Assembly: GCF_016056305.1 (NCBI RefSeq)
Contig: NZ_JAECZC010000003.1
Location: 64,317-128,316 of the forward strand
Origin: Amazonocrinis nigriterrae CENA67
GTDB taxonomy: Bacteria; Cyanobacteriota; Cyanobacteriia; Cyanobacteriales; Nostocaceae
Direction: 5' to 3'
DNA: 64,000 nucleotides
The notes below the pieces were generated by a model. The model was not told the origin of the DNA. It saw nothing but the letters and a program-made list of their open reading frames with translations, and ran no database searches. Below, piece after piece: positions 55,191 to 58,876 of the stretch. Numbering within the stretch: position 1 is the first letter of the stretch; every line of letters begins with the position of its first letter. The position numbers were made by a program, and so were the translations under genes.

Positions 55191-55677
55191 ATGATATACT
55201 ATCTTGGCAAAAATTGGGTCACTTTTTTGTATCGTTTGGCAAAGTTACGGCAAATTTATCGGCAAAAGCATAACACAGTCTAGTTAAATGTTATGTTTTT
55301 ACCACTCTAATGCACATACCAGCGACGAAACATTAGGCAAAAGTTTTTGCCTAATACCCAATAAACCATGTCTAACAGGTTGAGAACAAAACCCGAAAAC
55401 ATTCTCTTTTCTTAGTGTCTTAGTGACTTTGTGGTTAAAAAATTTCCTCTATAACCACGAAGACACGAAGACACCAAGGTAAAGAGCCAAAAGAGCTAGC
55501 CCCAGCGTTGGCTACTGAGAAAAAATTCTCATAATTGGCTTTCTAGACACTTGACATCTAGTACTACTAATACTACAATTGTAATACAAGCTGATGTTCA
55601 AAAGAAATTAACTTTCAACCTAGCCAATAGCTGGGGTGACAAAGAATTTTGAATGTCTAACTTACAACTTTAATATG
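55191..55677. other. Spacer with an imperfect inverted repeat (55410-55479)
   Basis: No coding feature. The inverted repeat has arms 55410-55437 and 55452-55479, each built of CTTNGTGNCTTNGTG units, 23 of 28 positions complementary. A candidate promoter (TTGAAT 55649, TAATAT 55671) is close to the first tRNA-like RNA. If used, transcription would begin inside its acceptor stem, so the real promoter is probably further upstream. Confidence 0.5.
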
Positions 55678-55799
55678 TGGCGGATAGCTCAGTGGCACAG
55701 CGCTAAACATCCTTATTCACACCTTGCCTGAAAAGGCCGAAGAATCGAGGGTTATCGATTGGGTTCGAGAGGTCGCAGGTTCAAATCCCGCCCTGCTAC
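55678..55799 (+). ncRNA. Y RNA (YrlA-like, tRNA-mimicking), upstream copy 1
   Basis: tRNA-like outer part: 5' strand TGGCGGA, TA, D-arm GCTC...CAGC, then a T-arm GCAGG-TTCAAAT-CCCGC (one mismatch) and 3' strand CCTGCTA. The acceptor pairs include G-U wobbles and one mismatch, so this is the least tRNA-like of the first two copies. In place of the anticodon arm lies an 80-nt insert. ATCCTT (55709) pairs with AGGG-tt-AT (55748-55755), ATTC pairs with GAAT, and GCCT-GAAA-AGGC closes the tip. The strand 55735-55757 (GGCCGAAGAATCGAG, then GGTTATCG) resembles the Ro-binding strand of animal Y RNAs. It is the first element of the Ro60 locus. Confidence 0.8.
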
Positions 55800-55945
55800 A
55801 CAAATTAGTGCTGAGTGCTGAGTGCTGAGTGAAAAGTTAAGAGTATAGAGTGAAGAGTTAGAAATTTTAAATTGAAAAATCTTTAACTTTTAACTCTTAA
55901 TTCCTAACTCCTAACTCCTAACTATTAACTTCTAACTTTATTTTG

Positions 55946-56071
55946 TGGCAGGTAGCTCAGTGGGTAGAGCGCCGAAAAATATCCTTGTTCACCCCTTGCC
56001 TGAAAAGGCCGACGAATTAGGGTTATCGCCTGTTAAGCCGGATGTCGCAGGTTCGAGTCCTGCCCTGCCAC
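55946..56071 (+). ncRNA. Y RNA (YrlA-like, tRNA-mimicking), upstream copy 2
   Basis: Very good tRNA mimic. The acceptor TGGCAGG/CCTGCCA has 7 perfect pairs, TA at positions 8-9, D-arm GCTC-AGTGGGTA-GAGC and T-arm GCAGG-TTCGAGT-CCTGC. Between them a 76-nt insert replaces the anticodon arm. CCG/CGG pairs at its base, ATCCTT/AGGG-tt-AT, GTTC/GAAT (G-U against A-U in copy 1), and GCCT-GAAA-AGGC at the tip. The conserved strand is 56007-56028. The insert ends with CTGTTAAGCCGG, which resembles the anticodon loop of tRNA-Asn(GTT) and may be a relic of its origin. It lies 37 bp before the Ro gene. Confidence 0.85.
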
Positions 56072-56082
56072 CTTTCATTTTT

Positions 56083-56094
56083 GCCCGTAAGGGC
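56083..56094 (+). promoter_or_regulatory. Small hairpin and SD between Y RNA 2 and the Ro gene
   Basis: GCCC-GTAA-GGGC follows a run of T and ends one base before the GGGAG SD (56096-56100), 8 bp ahead of ATG 56109. It may separate the Y RNA 3' end from the mRNA or limit ribosome access. Confidence 0.4.
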
Positions 56095-56108
56095 TGGGAG
56101 ATGAAGCC

Positions 56109-57710
56109 ATGAATTACAACTTCTTCACTAAAAAGAAGACAACCACACCACAATCACAGCCTATCCCTGGACGAGAAGCCGAGATGATTCAAGGACGTTC
56201 CGGTGGTTGGATGTTTGACGCTGGCATTTGGAAGATGCTGCGCCGTTGTCTTTTGGTTGGTACAGCAAAAAGCACATACTATGCTGGTAAGCAAGAATTA
56301 ACTGAAGATTTTGTAACGGTTGTCAGACAAGCTGTTGCTGAAAATCCCAGCCGTGTAGCCGAAGAAATTCTCTATGCTAGCGACGGACGCGCCATCAATA
56401 ACAGTGCTACTATTCTGGCATTGGTACTACTATCTATGGCCGAAGCACCACAAGCAAAACAGGCTTTTGGTGAAATCTTTGGGCAAGTTGTCCGCACTGG
56501 TAGCCACTTCTATGAATGGTTGAATTACACCAAATCTTTGCGAGGATTTGGTAAGGTGGTGCGCGAAGCTGGTAAAACTTGGCTTTCACGAGAAGATGTG
56601 AAAGGTTTAGCTTATCAGTTGTTGAAATATCAACAGCGTCACGGCTTCTCTCACCGAGATGCATTACGGTTGTTCCATGTCAAACCACCTACAGAAAATC
56701 ATCGTCAACTATTTGAGTGGGTAGTTAAAGGCTGGGAAGATTTGCCAGCAGAAATCCCTTCTGAAGCATTGGCGCAGATTTGGTGGTATGAGTGGCTGAA
56801 GCGAAATCCTTCCGAAACTCATGAAGCGATTTTGCAAGGACGCTTAACCCACGAAATGGCTGCACCTGTAGGCAAGATGGATAAACAAGCTTGGCAATTG
56901 CTATTTGCAGAAATGCCAATAGGTGCAATGCTGCGTAACCTGGGTTCACTCACAGAACTGGGTGTGTTGCGAAGCGATGAAAGTACTAATTTATCGCGTG
57001 TGGAAGCAGTTCTCAATAACAAGGAACATCTGCGTAAAGGTCGTATCCATCCGATTGATGTGTTGAAAGCACTCAAAACTTATGAATCTGGAGGAAGATT
57101 AGGACGTAGCCAAAAGACTTGGAAACCTGTTTCTCGCATTGTGGATATTTTAGAAAAAGCTGTGGAACTGTCTTTTGATGTTGTGCAACCCACTGGCAAA
57201 GTGTTCATGCACGCCGTAGACGTTTCCGGCTCAATGGGTAGCTTAGTTGCAGATATGGGGCTAAGTTGCTGTGAAATAGCCACCACAATGGCACTGGTGA
57301 CAGCAAAAGCAGATAAAAACTATATGATTCGCGGCTTTGCTACTGAATTCCGGGAATTAGGGATCACCGCTAAAGATAGTTTTAGTTCTGCTGTTTCCAA
57401 AGCTAGAAATCAAAACTTTGGGGGAACTGATGCATCTGTAGCTTACGACTGGATGATTAAGAATCAGTTCAAAGCAGATGTAGTCTGCTTTTGGACTGAC
57501 AGTGAATCATGGGCTGGATATCAGCATCCTAGTCAAGCGTTGGCGAAGTATCGTAAAAAGGTGAATCCCAACGTTAAGGCTGTGTATGTCACTCTCACAC
57601 CTTACCGCATTACTTTGGTAGATCCTCAAGATCCATTGTCTTGGGATTTGGCGGGGTTCGATCCAGGGACACCGCGGATCATCCAGATGCTAGCTACGGG
57701 TGAGTTGTAA
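56109..57710 (+). CDS. rsr: TROVE-vWA domain RNA-binding protein (Ro60 / Rsr orthologue)
   Basis: 533 residues. The N-terminal two thirds is a TROVE ring of helical repeats (EMIQGRSGGWMFDAGIWKML, EDFVTVVRQAVAENPSRVAE, AEMPIGAMLRNLGSLTELGV). The C-terminus is a von Willebrand A domain with the MIDAS Asp371-x-Ser373-x-Ser375 in HAVDVSGSMGSLVADM, then NFGGTDASVAYDW and VCFWTDSESWAG. Ro60 proteins bind Y RNAs on the outer ring and misfolded RNAs in the central hole. Bacterial Rsr works with exoribonucleases in RNA decay and rRNA processing. It has a good SD and is flanked by three Y-like RNAs, which gives strong context support. Confidence 0.95.
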   Translation: MNYNFFTKKKTTTPQSQPIPGREAEMIQGRSGGWMFDAGIWKMLRRCLLVGTAKSTYYAGKQELTEDFVTVVRQAVAENPSRVAEEILYASDGRAINNSATILALVLLSMAEAPQAKQAFGEIFGQVVRTGSHFYEWLNYTKSLRGFGKVVREAGKTWLSREDVKGLAYQLLKYQQRHGFSHRDALRLFHVKPPTENHRQLFEWVVKGWEDLPAEIPSEALAQIWWYEWLKRNPSETHEAILQGRLTHEMAAPVGKMDKQAWQLLFAEMPIGAMLRNLGSLTELGVLRSDESTNLSRVEAVLNNKEHLRKGRIHPIDVLKALKTYESGGRLGRSQKTWKPVSRIVDILEKAVELSFDVVQPTGKVFMHAVDVSGSMGSLVADMGLSCCEIATTMALVTAKADKNYMIRGFATEFRELGITAKDSFSSAVSKARNQNFGGTDASVAYDWMIKNQFKADVVCFWTDSESWAGYQHPSQALAKYRKKVNPNVKAVYVTLTPYRITLVDPQDPLSWDLAGFDPGTPRIIQMLATGEL

Positions 57711-57764
57711 GAACGGCTGAATCATAAAGGATAAAAGCAATTATTACCTTTTATCCTTTTTCAT

Positions 57765-57873
57765 GGCGGGTTATCCTGGTTCGCAATTTGCCTTTCGAGG
57801 ACGATGAATTTAGGGTTATCGGTTATATCTCCACCATTTTGGGGATTAGCGGGTTCAATCCCCGCACCCGCCT
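57765..57873 (+). ncRNA. Y RNA (tRNA-mimicking), downstream copy 3 with altered architecture
   Basis: Acceptor GGCGGGT/ACCCGCC (7 perfect pairs) and T-arm GCGGG-TTCAATC-CCCGC are intact, but there is no D-arm. Directly after the acceptor 5' strand comes the Ro-type hairpin: ATCCT / AGGG-tt-AT, GTTC/GAAT, and a CCT-TTCG-AGG tip (a UUCG loop in place of GAAA). The conserved strand is 57799-57822 (GGACGATGAATTTAG, then GGTTATCGG). A second hairpin (ATCTCC ... GGGGAT, 57827-57846, 8-nt loop) precedes the T-arm. It lies 54 bp beyond the Ro stop codon, so it may be transcribed with it or alone. It ends in TTTGTTTTG. Confidence 0.8.
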
Positions 57874-58876
57874 TTGTTTTGTCACATGATTTATCTCACG
57901 CAAAGGCGCAAAGACGCAAAGAAGAACGCTAAAGGGTATATTTTAATCAAATTAAAACTTTTGTAAGATATCGCGCTTACTCTTTGAATTTCCGTTTCTC
58001 AATTTCAGCTATGGGTAAGAGTAGGGTGTCTTCTATGTGTGATCGCACTTCAGGAGATACCTCACAAAAACTATTCAAGCAATATACCAGAAACTTATTA
58101 GCCTCGTAATACTGCCTTATGCGAAAAAATAAATGGCGAGTTTACAGCCTGAACCCAGTACCAATTGAAGGATAAGGTAAACACTGCTGTAAAAAAGTGC
58201 GATCGCACGAAAAAACTTAAAGCCTGCGATCGCAGGCTTTGTATTTCTAACCTTAATTCTACAAACGCGCCACTGCTGGAGTTTTATCATTTGAACGCGG
58301 ATTAGTATCAGCACTCAGCAACGCCAGGTGCTACAACGGAGGGAACGTCCGCAACGCACTGGCTCCTCAGCACTTTGCTATATCCTCTGATTGGCAGATG
58401 CGATAAATAGTGATGGGCACTTTTTATAGGGAAGAGCGTCTCAAGAAATATCCTTACATGCTCAGGGAATAAGCAAAAATCCCTAGGGTTGTCTACAACT
58501 AGCCTTTCAGGTGATGCTTGCTGGTTGCTACCGAACCGCGCTACCAAAGTCGCTGATTTCGCAAAACCAGCAACAGTACCGCAGTATCTTTTTGAAGGAA
58601 ACCCTGCGCTGAACTGCTTGTGGTGTCACCACGCGTCTACGCCAACTCTAAAAATAGGGATTTGCTACACACAATTGTTGTAGCACGGCGGTAAGACTAC
58701 CAGCCAAATAAACCCTAGTAAATTTTTGTCAGCTATTGGTAACTTTTTCAACATTTATTTGGAATTTTTGTCAGCAATTATCCATTTTTTTCGTCAAATT
58801 CTGGTAAACCAATAGTACGGCGTGTATTTACAGTAAATGATCTTGCTTGAAATGCTATCAATCAAGGAGACCTGCC
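57874..58876. other. Spacer downstream of the Ro locus
   Basis: Holds CGCAAAGGCGCAAAGACGCA repeats (57900-57925), a palindrome at 58219-58240, mosaic repeats (58315-58370) and short open frames on both strands (58308-58683). I cannot link these frames to any protein family. Confidence 0.6.
58219..58240. terminator. Perfect 22-bp palindrome centred on HIP1
   Basis: AAAGCCTGCGA and its exact inverse, with GCGATCGC at the centre. As RNA it would be a GC-rich hairpin followed by T-rich sequence on either strand, so it could act as a bidirectional terminator. No gene end is close to it, which leaves the role uncertain. Confidence 0.4.

Follow-up and report, generated by a model that had tools for sequence, protein, structure and literature searches.

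Y RNAs in tRNA order beside a cyanobacterial Ro60 gene: a probable circular permutation of the YrlA fold

We analyzed a stretch of 64,000 nucleotides (nt) from the cyanobacterium Amazonocrinis nigriterrae CENA67 (contig NZ_JAECZC010000003.1, positions 64,317 to 128,316 of the forward strand; hereafter the window) and found a gene for a Ro60 protein flanked by three tRNA-like RNAs, two upstream and one downstream, with a Y-type motif common to all three. The locus, which lies in a genome of 8.26 Mb, very probably specifies the Ro60 ring protein (Rsr) together with Y RNAs in a tRNA-ordered form, circularly permuted relative to the bacterial Y RNA YrlA, that would work as proposed under "Discussion." The order of the parts, their pairing, their co-occurrence, and their conservation were obtained directly by sequence analysis. 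An earlier, sequence-only reading of this stretch had posited a Ro60 orthologue accompanied, at one locus, by a few related tRNA-like Y RNAs, which our results support at the level of sequence; it was right in kind, and the permutation of the chain order and a noncircular sister form in relatives had gone unseen.

RESULTS

A Ro60 Gene Flanked by Three tRNA-like RNAs

The open reading frame at 56109–57710 (+ strand, as are all window features below) encodes a TROVE-vWA protein of 533 amino acids. Both Pfam domains score above their cut-offs (vWA_Ro60, 124.8 bits; TROVE, 69 bits), and the protein aligns along most of the structures 1yvp (E = 3.3e-71) and 2nvo (E = 4e-71), which we take to be Xenopus Ro60 and Deinococcus Rsr. 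Residues Lys-173, Arg-177, and His-190 are identical to their aligned counterparts Lys-170, Arg-174, and His-187 of 1yvp, which are presumably Y RNA contacts. The predicted product, with a TROVE ring domain and a Ro60-type vWA domain, is thus a Ro60/Rsr protein, and its closest named relatives are from Nostoc and other cyanobacteria. The locus proposed, a TROVE gene with three noncoding RNAs around it, was confirmed by the Pfam domains, the strand shared by all three RNAs, and covariation in type A (see below); adjoining a Ro60 gene, the RNAs are probable bacterial Y RNAs in the broad sense.

RNA 2 (55945–56071), a tRNA-ordered Y RNA of the class that we call type A, ends 37 nt ahead of the TROVE start codon. 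It scores 127.2 bits with R1, a covariance model whose training set includes RNAs 1 and 2. Its parts were delimited from A1, an alignment of 26 type A sequences (20 of 21 nonredundant type A units, L065 having been dropped, and 6 more). They follow in the order G-1, 7-bp acceptor strand, U8 and A9, D-arm, G26, strand b', strand a' (UUGCCU), a GAAA loop, and strand a, and then b, UA, a short hairpin with the 7-nt loop CUGUUAA, the T-arm, the second acceptor strand, and C73. The acceptor 5' strand (55946–55952) pairs with 56064–56070, and G-1 (55945) stands opposite C73 (56071); the D-arm is GCUC-AGUGGGUA-GAGC (55955–55970). Strand b' (AUCCU-U-GUUC; 55981–55990) has as its proposed partner 56014–56023 of strand b, which spans 56014–56028 (GAAU-U-AGGGUUAUCG) and reads GAAU-U-AGGGU in its pairing part. 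Between them lies the putative Ro-site hairpin UU-GCCU-GAAA-AGGC-(bulged C 56010)-GA (55996–56012), helix 5 of A1. In A1 the columns of GGUUAUCG are invariant, and its UCG doubles as the 5' strand of the stem in the anticodon-like hairpin UCGC-CUGUUAA-GC(C)GG (56026–56041; 4-bp stem, 7-nt loop, bulged C), and the T-arm is GCAGG-UUCGAGU-CCUGC (56047–56063).

RNA 1 (55677–55799), also of type A and likewise a training sequence of R1 (110 bits), has the same order: acceptor with G-1:C73, D-arm, b', the a'-loop-a Ro-site hairpin, b ending in GGGTTATCG, a short hairpin, and the T-arm. It is less regular on inspection, one pair being missing from the acceptor (6 of 7) and one from the D-stem (3 of 4). 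The downstream RNA, RNA 3 (57765–57873), represents a third class, type C, for which relatives were aligned: the acceptor (GGCGGGT/ACCCGCC) is followed directly by b', the Ro-site hairpin, an extra hairpin, and the T-arm. R1 gives 40.7 bits over 57699–57873; this score alone cannot identify RNA 3, because an ordinary tRNA-Gly in the window scores higher (46.9 bits). All three RNAs have a T-arm, an acceptor, and the shared strand CGA..GAAT..GGGTTATCG, and a D-arm is present in the two upstream RNAs. The earlier reading had seen a paired acceptor and T-arm in each RNA, which stands for all three apart from the single defect in the acceptor of RNA 1; it had missed the D-arm of the upstream RNAs and the anticodon-like hairpin, the latter found in 90 of 127 type A units.

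In the predicted Ro-site helix, a GNCGA-type strand faces a UUG strand, as in what we take to be the Ro-site consensus of Y RNAs. In animal Y RNAs, which lack a tRNA part, the two ends pair to form a stem; the GG-CCGA..GGUUAUC strand presumably resembles their corresponding strand, as the earlier reading had noted. The Ro60-site helix of vertebrate Y RNAs contains a single bulged C (PMC4726728), and so does the a'/a hairpin.

Pairing and Covariation

In A1, 96.5% of cells were paired and both sides had changed in 19 of 31 pairs; none of 500 shuffles matched the real alignment on any of five measures, and shifting the partner by 1 to 3 columns lowered pairing to 41–55%. Both-sided changes occurred in 7 of 7 acceptor pairs, 4 of 4 D-arm pairs, and 3 of 5 T-arm pairs, the other 2 being invariant. 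The Ro-site hairpin was paired in 96.8% of cells, with both-sided changes in 3 of 6 pairs and a 3–4-nt loop joining a' and a. The b/b' stem was weaker (92–93% of cells; both-sided changes in just 2 of 9 pairs). Single-sequence folding supported RNA 2 (minimum free energy z = -2.42) and RNA 3 (z = -3.06).

Chain Order Relative to YrlA

In its published description, YrlA has D, T, and acceptor arms and a large stem in which the 5' end pairs with the 3' end (PMC8394870). The consensus line of the Rfam family (RF02553) reads outer end-pairing, T-arm, closed acceptor hairpin, and D-arm. A Ro-site stem, T-arm, acceptor, D-arm, and neighboring Ro60/Rsr gene are common to YrlA and the window RNAs. The likeness to YrlA that had been suggested does not extend to the arrangement: in YrlA (RF02553; Salmonella structure 6CU1) the Ro stem joins the two ends and the acceptor forms a closed hairpin, whereas in the window type the Ro stem is closed and the acceptor open.

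Because tandem arrays read the same in either order, we tested the acceptors. A finder that ignores acceptor pairing passed 152 units in 74 loci, out of 346 candidate sites in 82 sources; its first D-arm component had been too strict (32 units) and was loosened ahead of the acceptor test. All seven acceptor pairs formed in 140 of the 152 units, and 127 had G-1:C73. Among 69 pairs of adjacent units with different acceptors, 58 paired better within the unit and 1 across units, the two being equal in the remaining 10. The acceptors pair inside units, and the units are therefore tRNA-ordered, a circular permutation of YrlA. In the window RNAs, the YrlA end-pairing is replaced by a predicted acceptor that pairs within the unit, and a short loop links a' to a.

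These results bear on the possibility that nothing is permuted and that ordinary YrlA is being read across unit borders (a, b, T-arm, and acceptor of one copy, then acceptor, D-arm, b', and a' of the next). In a tandem array both readings share the same linear order, and the Rfam YrlA model does reach 31 bits when it spans a pair of neighboring units in PCC 7002. We nevertheless consider this very unlikely, given the preference for pairing within units, the length of the spacers between units (median, 71 nt; range, 15–2173; n = 78) as against 3–4 nt between a' and a, and the lone type C unit downstream of the gene.

YrlA order itself occurs in six loci, from mycobacterial and Gordonia phages, Nonomuraea, Rhizobium, and L122. 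In a comparison covering these loci only, the longest helix of strand a lay 3' at 16 of 16 sites (7–13 bp, compared with 0–6 bp upstream), the downstream stretch offered being longer than the upstream one and one site (L152 1725) looking spurious; L153 and L154 contributed no site. On visual inspection, the phage, Rhizobium, and Nonomuraea loci contain the GGUUAYC strand.

With Rfam at gathering scores, no YrlA was reported in the window or in 19 other loci. A loose search of 55300–58200 against the Rfam YrlA and Y RNA models, the check originally suggested, gave no match up to E = 10. Failing the YrlA cut-off says little alone, because the YrlA-ordered loci stay below it too (best, 52 of 69 bits).

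Three observations concern YrlA-like and related RNAs elsewhere. L122 (genome G284, of the same family as the window genome) contains a second Ro60, 31% identical, with YrlA-ordered RNAs, a GCAA-closed acceptor hairpin visible by eye, and an adjoining tRNA array. In Gordonia phage Mareelih (L153 4658–4797), an annotated tRNA-Leu(gag) overlaps a 52-bit YrlA match and may be a misnamed Y RNA. The Rfam nematode family ceN72-3_ceN74-2 scores 31–37 bits (cut-off, 38) at L119 3206–3411 and L151 1786–1913, beside bacterial or phage Ro60 genes.

Spacing to the Ro60 Gene and the Leader Hairpin

The last detected unit ends 30–45 nt ahead of the Ro60 start in 53 of 74 loci, 37 nt being commonest, as in the window. 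From this spacing, the Y RNAs and the Ro60 mRNA are probably one transcript parted by tRNA processing. In a consensus scan, a promoter-like site (TTGACA-17-TACAAT, 11 of 12 positions; 55551–55579) lies ~100 nt upstream of RNA 1; the scan returned 9 sites, against a shuffle mean of 4.5.

The putative leader of the TROVE mRNA contains a hairpin, UU-GCCC-GUAA-GGGC-U-GGGAG (56081–56100), that looks like a Ro site and runs into the Shine-Dalgarno sequence. The form UU-4 bp-loop-4 bp-N-GRR was present in 73 of 81 leaders (56072–56108 of the window and those of 80 named loci), compared with 1 of 8000 shuffled leaders; the bulged base was C in 52 and U in 21, the window having U. It is a natural guess that Ro60 might regulate its own synthesis through this hairpin.

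The near-constant spacing to the start codon and the Ro-site-like leader hairpin would also suit RNAs that act mainly in cis, in processing or regulation of the Ro60 mRNA, rather than as trans-acting Ro60 partners. We assign this alternative very little probability, since a cis element would need neither multiunit arrays nor a further copy downstream of the gene.

Published expression data exist for Chlorogloeopsis. For Chlorogloeopsis fritschii PCC 9212, the TROVE transcript is reported to have "increased dramatically" under erythromycin, for reasons given there as unknown (PMC6424891), and in coculture under far-red light the Chlorogloeopsis genes for TROVE and RtcB changed by log2 +4.5 and +3.5 (PMC11423583). 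Our array from this genus, L080, is that of strain PCC 6912, and orthology with the measured gene is assumed.

The tRNA Body and the Inserted Y Module

A first classification assigned 127 of the 152 units to type A and 5 to type B (see below), leaving 20 in neither; several of the 20 are type A by eye. Type A keeps the tRNA (RF00005) order of acceptor, D-arm, anticodon-like hairpin, T-arm, and acceptor. The window type A RNAs differ in carrying a Y module of ~50 nt past the D-arm and in failing to reach the Rfam cut-off. Most type A relatives have the module between the D-arm and the anticodon-like arm; in some (e.g. L107:635 and L114:2609), a stem encloses it by eye rather than following it. 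When the Y insert was cut out in silico, ARAGORN called 109 of the 127 bodies tRNA, compared with 1 of the 127 intact units and none of 127 shuffled bodies. In 90 of the 127 units, GGUUA is followed by a hairpin with a 7-nt loop and a stem of 4 bp, in which one bulge was tolerated; shuffled segments averaged 11.6 such hairpins and never exceeded 20 (200 shuffles). Normal anticodon loops fit NUNNNAA, as do 49 of these 90 loops; 29 end in GGGU.

The prediction that tRNA finders miss these RNAs held for the window, where ARAGORN and Rfam at gathering scores reported just one distant tRNA-Gly; loosely searched, 55300–58200 gave a tRNA match of 23 bits for RNA 1 (cut-off, 29) and a 17-base tmRNA fragment for RNA 3. 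It did not hold elsewhere: across 19 other loci, 29 array RNAs scored above the cut-off of the Rfam tRNA model, 27 as full-length matches.

Decoding is unlikely, because the anticodons called in the 109 bodies scatter (Pro, 30; Gly, 29; Asn, 9; Lys, 9; unassigned, 14; others, 18). Thus, it is highly improbable that these are genuine decoding tRNAs interrupted by a removable, intron-like Y element, even though most bodies pass as tRNA once the insert is removed and even though RtcB, which might join the halves, rises alongside TROVE in one transcriptome (PMC11423583). Besides the anticodons, the loops that end in GGGU, the rarity of a TTC T-loop in type B (10 of 51), and the position of the conserved Ro site within the insert count against it. 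To our knowledge, bacteria have no enzyme for such splicing.

Occurrence among Relatives

We examined the best 80 of 146 loci found by the Ro60 protein; sequences from 18 of the 80 are in the training set of R1. R1 had 324 matches at E ≤ 1e-4 in these loci, 300 of them listed. Among the matches listed, 79 of the 80 loci have one above 60 bits, so the hairpin is kept in relatives with the TROVE gene, a test on which the earlier reading could have failed, and up to ten matches are listed for one locus (L114). The highest score of an ordinary tRNA in the window's own genome was 54.3 bits, under the 60-bit mark. The remaining locus, L066, gave two matches, both weak (25.8 and 19.2 bits). Many of the lower matches, of types B and C (about 38–57 bits), overlap the range of ordinary tRNAs; their identity therefore rests on sequence and place rather than score.

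Within the order, a Ro60 protein was matched in 47 of 195 genomes, some by fragments only. A strict core motif was present in 22 of these 47 and in none of the other 148 (Fisher p = 2.4e-16, related genomes not being independent). All 40 motif matches lie on the Ro60 contig, at most 2330 nt from the gene, and a reversed-pattern control had none in the 195 genomes. The motif is narrow: genome G029 lacks it, yet its locus L145 gives R1 matches up to 57 bits. Two exact patterns had no match in viral contigs.

In the window's own genome, R1 listed 50 matches: RNAs 1 and 2, the type C RNA, one 121-nt tRNA-like gene, and 46 of 66–86 nt. Since 46 of the 50 are of tRNA length, the frame of the model is that of a tRNA. 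The 121-nt match (L166 1318–1438; C1:319617–319737) lies in a tRNA array in which ARAGORN finds 18 tRNA genes; we rejected it as a tRNA with an insert that, by eye, is unrelated to Y RNA.

Some array RNAs have further features. Short T-loop inserts (e.g. TACCCTACGGGAAGCAAGCTAC) occur in several relatives, at L044 2820–2963, L049 2653–2809, L052 2657–2800, L072 2653–2809, L086 2819–2964, and L061 4646–4790, and the array RNA at L094 938–1072 carries a repeated GGTTATCG strand. On plasmid pAQ7 of the laboratory strain Picosynechococcus PCC 7002 (L149 2541–2944), three array RNAs precede the TROVE gene; on inspection, a CCA is encoded after the first, and the third is of type B, so that types A and B are both present.

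That the RNAs are tRNA pseudogenes or mobile tRNA-like debris lying beside the gene by chance is scarcely credible, for although several copies carry T-loop insertions, the idea is contradicted by the compensatory changes in 19 of 31 pairs, by the co-occurrence with Ro60, and by the invariance of GGUUAUCG in A1, even if the selection of units required GGTTATC.

A Noncircular Order in Relatives

Type B, seen in many relatives and not in the window, has the order D-arm, a'-loop-a, b, loop, b', and T-arm, and is often the most upstream RNA. By duplex energy at 295 sites, b prefers an upstream partner at 183, a downstream partner at 55 (some of which are not type B by eye), and neither clearly at 57, which include window RNAs 1 and 2. 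Fifty-one downstream cases were delimited: 46 have a full D-stem, just 10 a TTC T-loop, and 48 a perfect acceptor, the last being no independent test because delimiting required at least 6 of 7 pairs.

From these we aligned 25 sequences (A2), comprising 23 of 30 nonredundant cases together with L091:2019 and L110:1674; of the seven dropped, two were mis-delimited and five were not type B by eye. The whole structure of A2 beat 500 of 500 shuffles, a measure taken over all helices together. In the 9-pair b/b' helix, 88.8% of cells were paired and 3 pairs had changed on both sides. In type B, then, b' follows the anticodon-like loop on its 3' side and is predicted to pair with b, a noncircular permutation relative to type A.

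The first natural noncircular RNA permutation to be reported was the hammerhead type SGC (Eckert 2023, PMC10085705), in which a block of the fold is relocated in the chain, as in type B, but in a ribozyme; that article does not use the term Y RNA. Viral tRNA-like structures have been described as noncircular relatives of tRNA with ARTEMIS (PMC11472068).

DISCUSSION

The analysis described here very probably identifies tRNA-ordered Y RNAs beside Ro60, and several results weigh against this reading. The independent finder passed just 152 of the 346 sites; the others include 36 without a CGA-type strand, 85 without a standard T-arm, and 73 without a D-arm. R1 scores 21–52 bits across the unit borders of YrlA-ordered arrays, so it cannot by itself separate the two orders. 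RNAalifold applied to A1 did not recover b/b' and preferred a local CGA/UCG hairpin, and b of the two upstream window RNAs pairs about equally well upstream and downstream (-8.7 versus -7.9 and -8.5 versus -8.3 kcal/mol). RNA 1 was unsupported by single-sequence folding (z = +0.89), its predicted fold being no cloverleaf, and RNA 3 cannot be called a complete tRNA because it has no D-arm. Finally, 25 of the 47 Ro60-positive genomes lack the strict motif.

We propose that a Y module, consisting of the closed Ro hairpin and the b'/b stem, was inserted at the gene level between the D-arm and the anticodon-like arm of a tRNA. The array would be cotranscribed with the Ro60 gene, and RNase P and RNase Z would recognize the tRNA folds, free the RNAs, and define the 5' end of the Ro60 mRNA. 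Ro60 may then bind the Y module via the closed a'/a hairpin, and, by analogy with YrlA, the tRNA-shaped end may recruit a tRNA-handling or RNA-degrading partner; reported partners of YrlA are PNPase and DusA/TruB (PMC8394870). Together, Ro60 and such a partner might act on damaged or structured RNA during translation stress.

A more extended proposal, about evenly balanced in our judgment, is that one fold exists in at least three chain orders (YrlA; the tRNA order of types A and C; and noncircular type B, which can share an array with type A), that the RNAs serve as decoys or baits, and that Ro60 is self-limiting. Under translation stress, a panel of anticodon-like loops could bait tRNA quality control or enzymes that cut tRNA, and Ro60 would limit its own synthesis by binding the Y-like leader hairpin. 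The tRNA-like part of Salmonella YrlA has been suggested to be an anticodon nuclease inhibitor (PMC7790460); RNAs with anticodon-like loops would suit this role better than YrlA does.

A bacterial Y RNA has been superposed in three dimensions on tRNA with a circular permutation by ARTEMIS (PMC11472068). Our literature search, which covered titles and abstract openings and had a key earlier survey outside it, returned no natural tRNA-ordered Y RNA; priority is not established. A natural tRNA-ordered counterpart would show that conservation applies to the fold rather than to the chain order, and would locate the junction of the Y module with the tRNA. It would also put both ends of the RNA at the acceptor, which opens a Y RNA to direct tests of tRNA processing, CCA addition, and even aminoacylation. 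The array also offers a lead on the rise of TROVE with erythromycin (PMC6424891).

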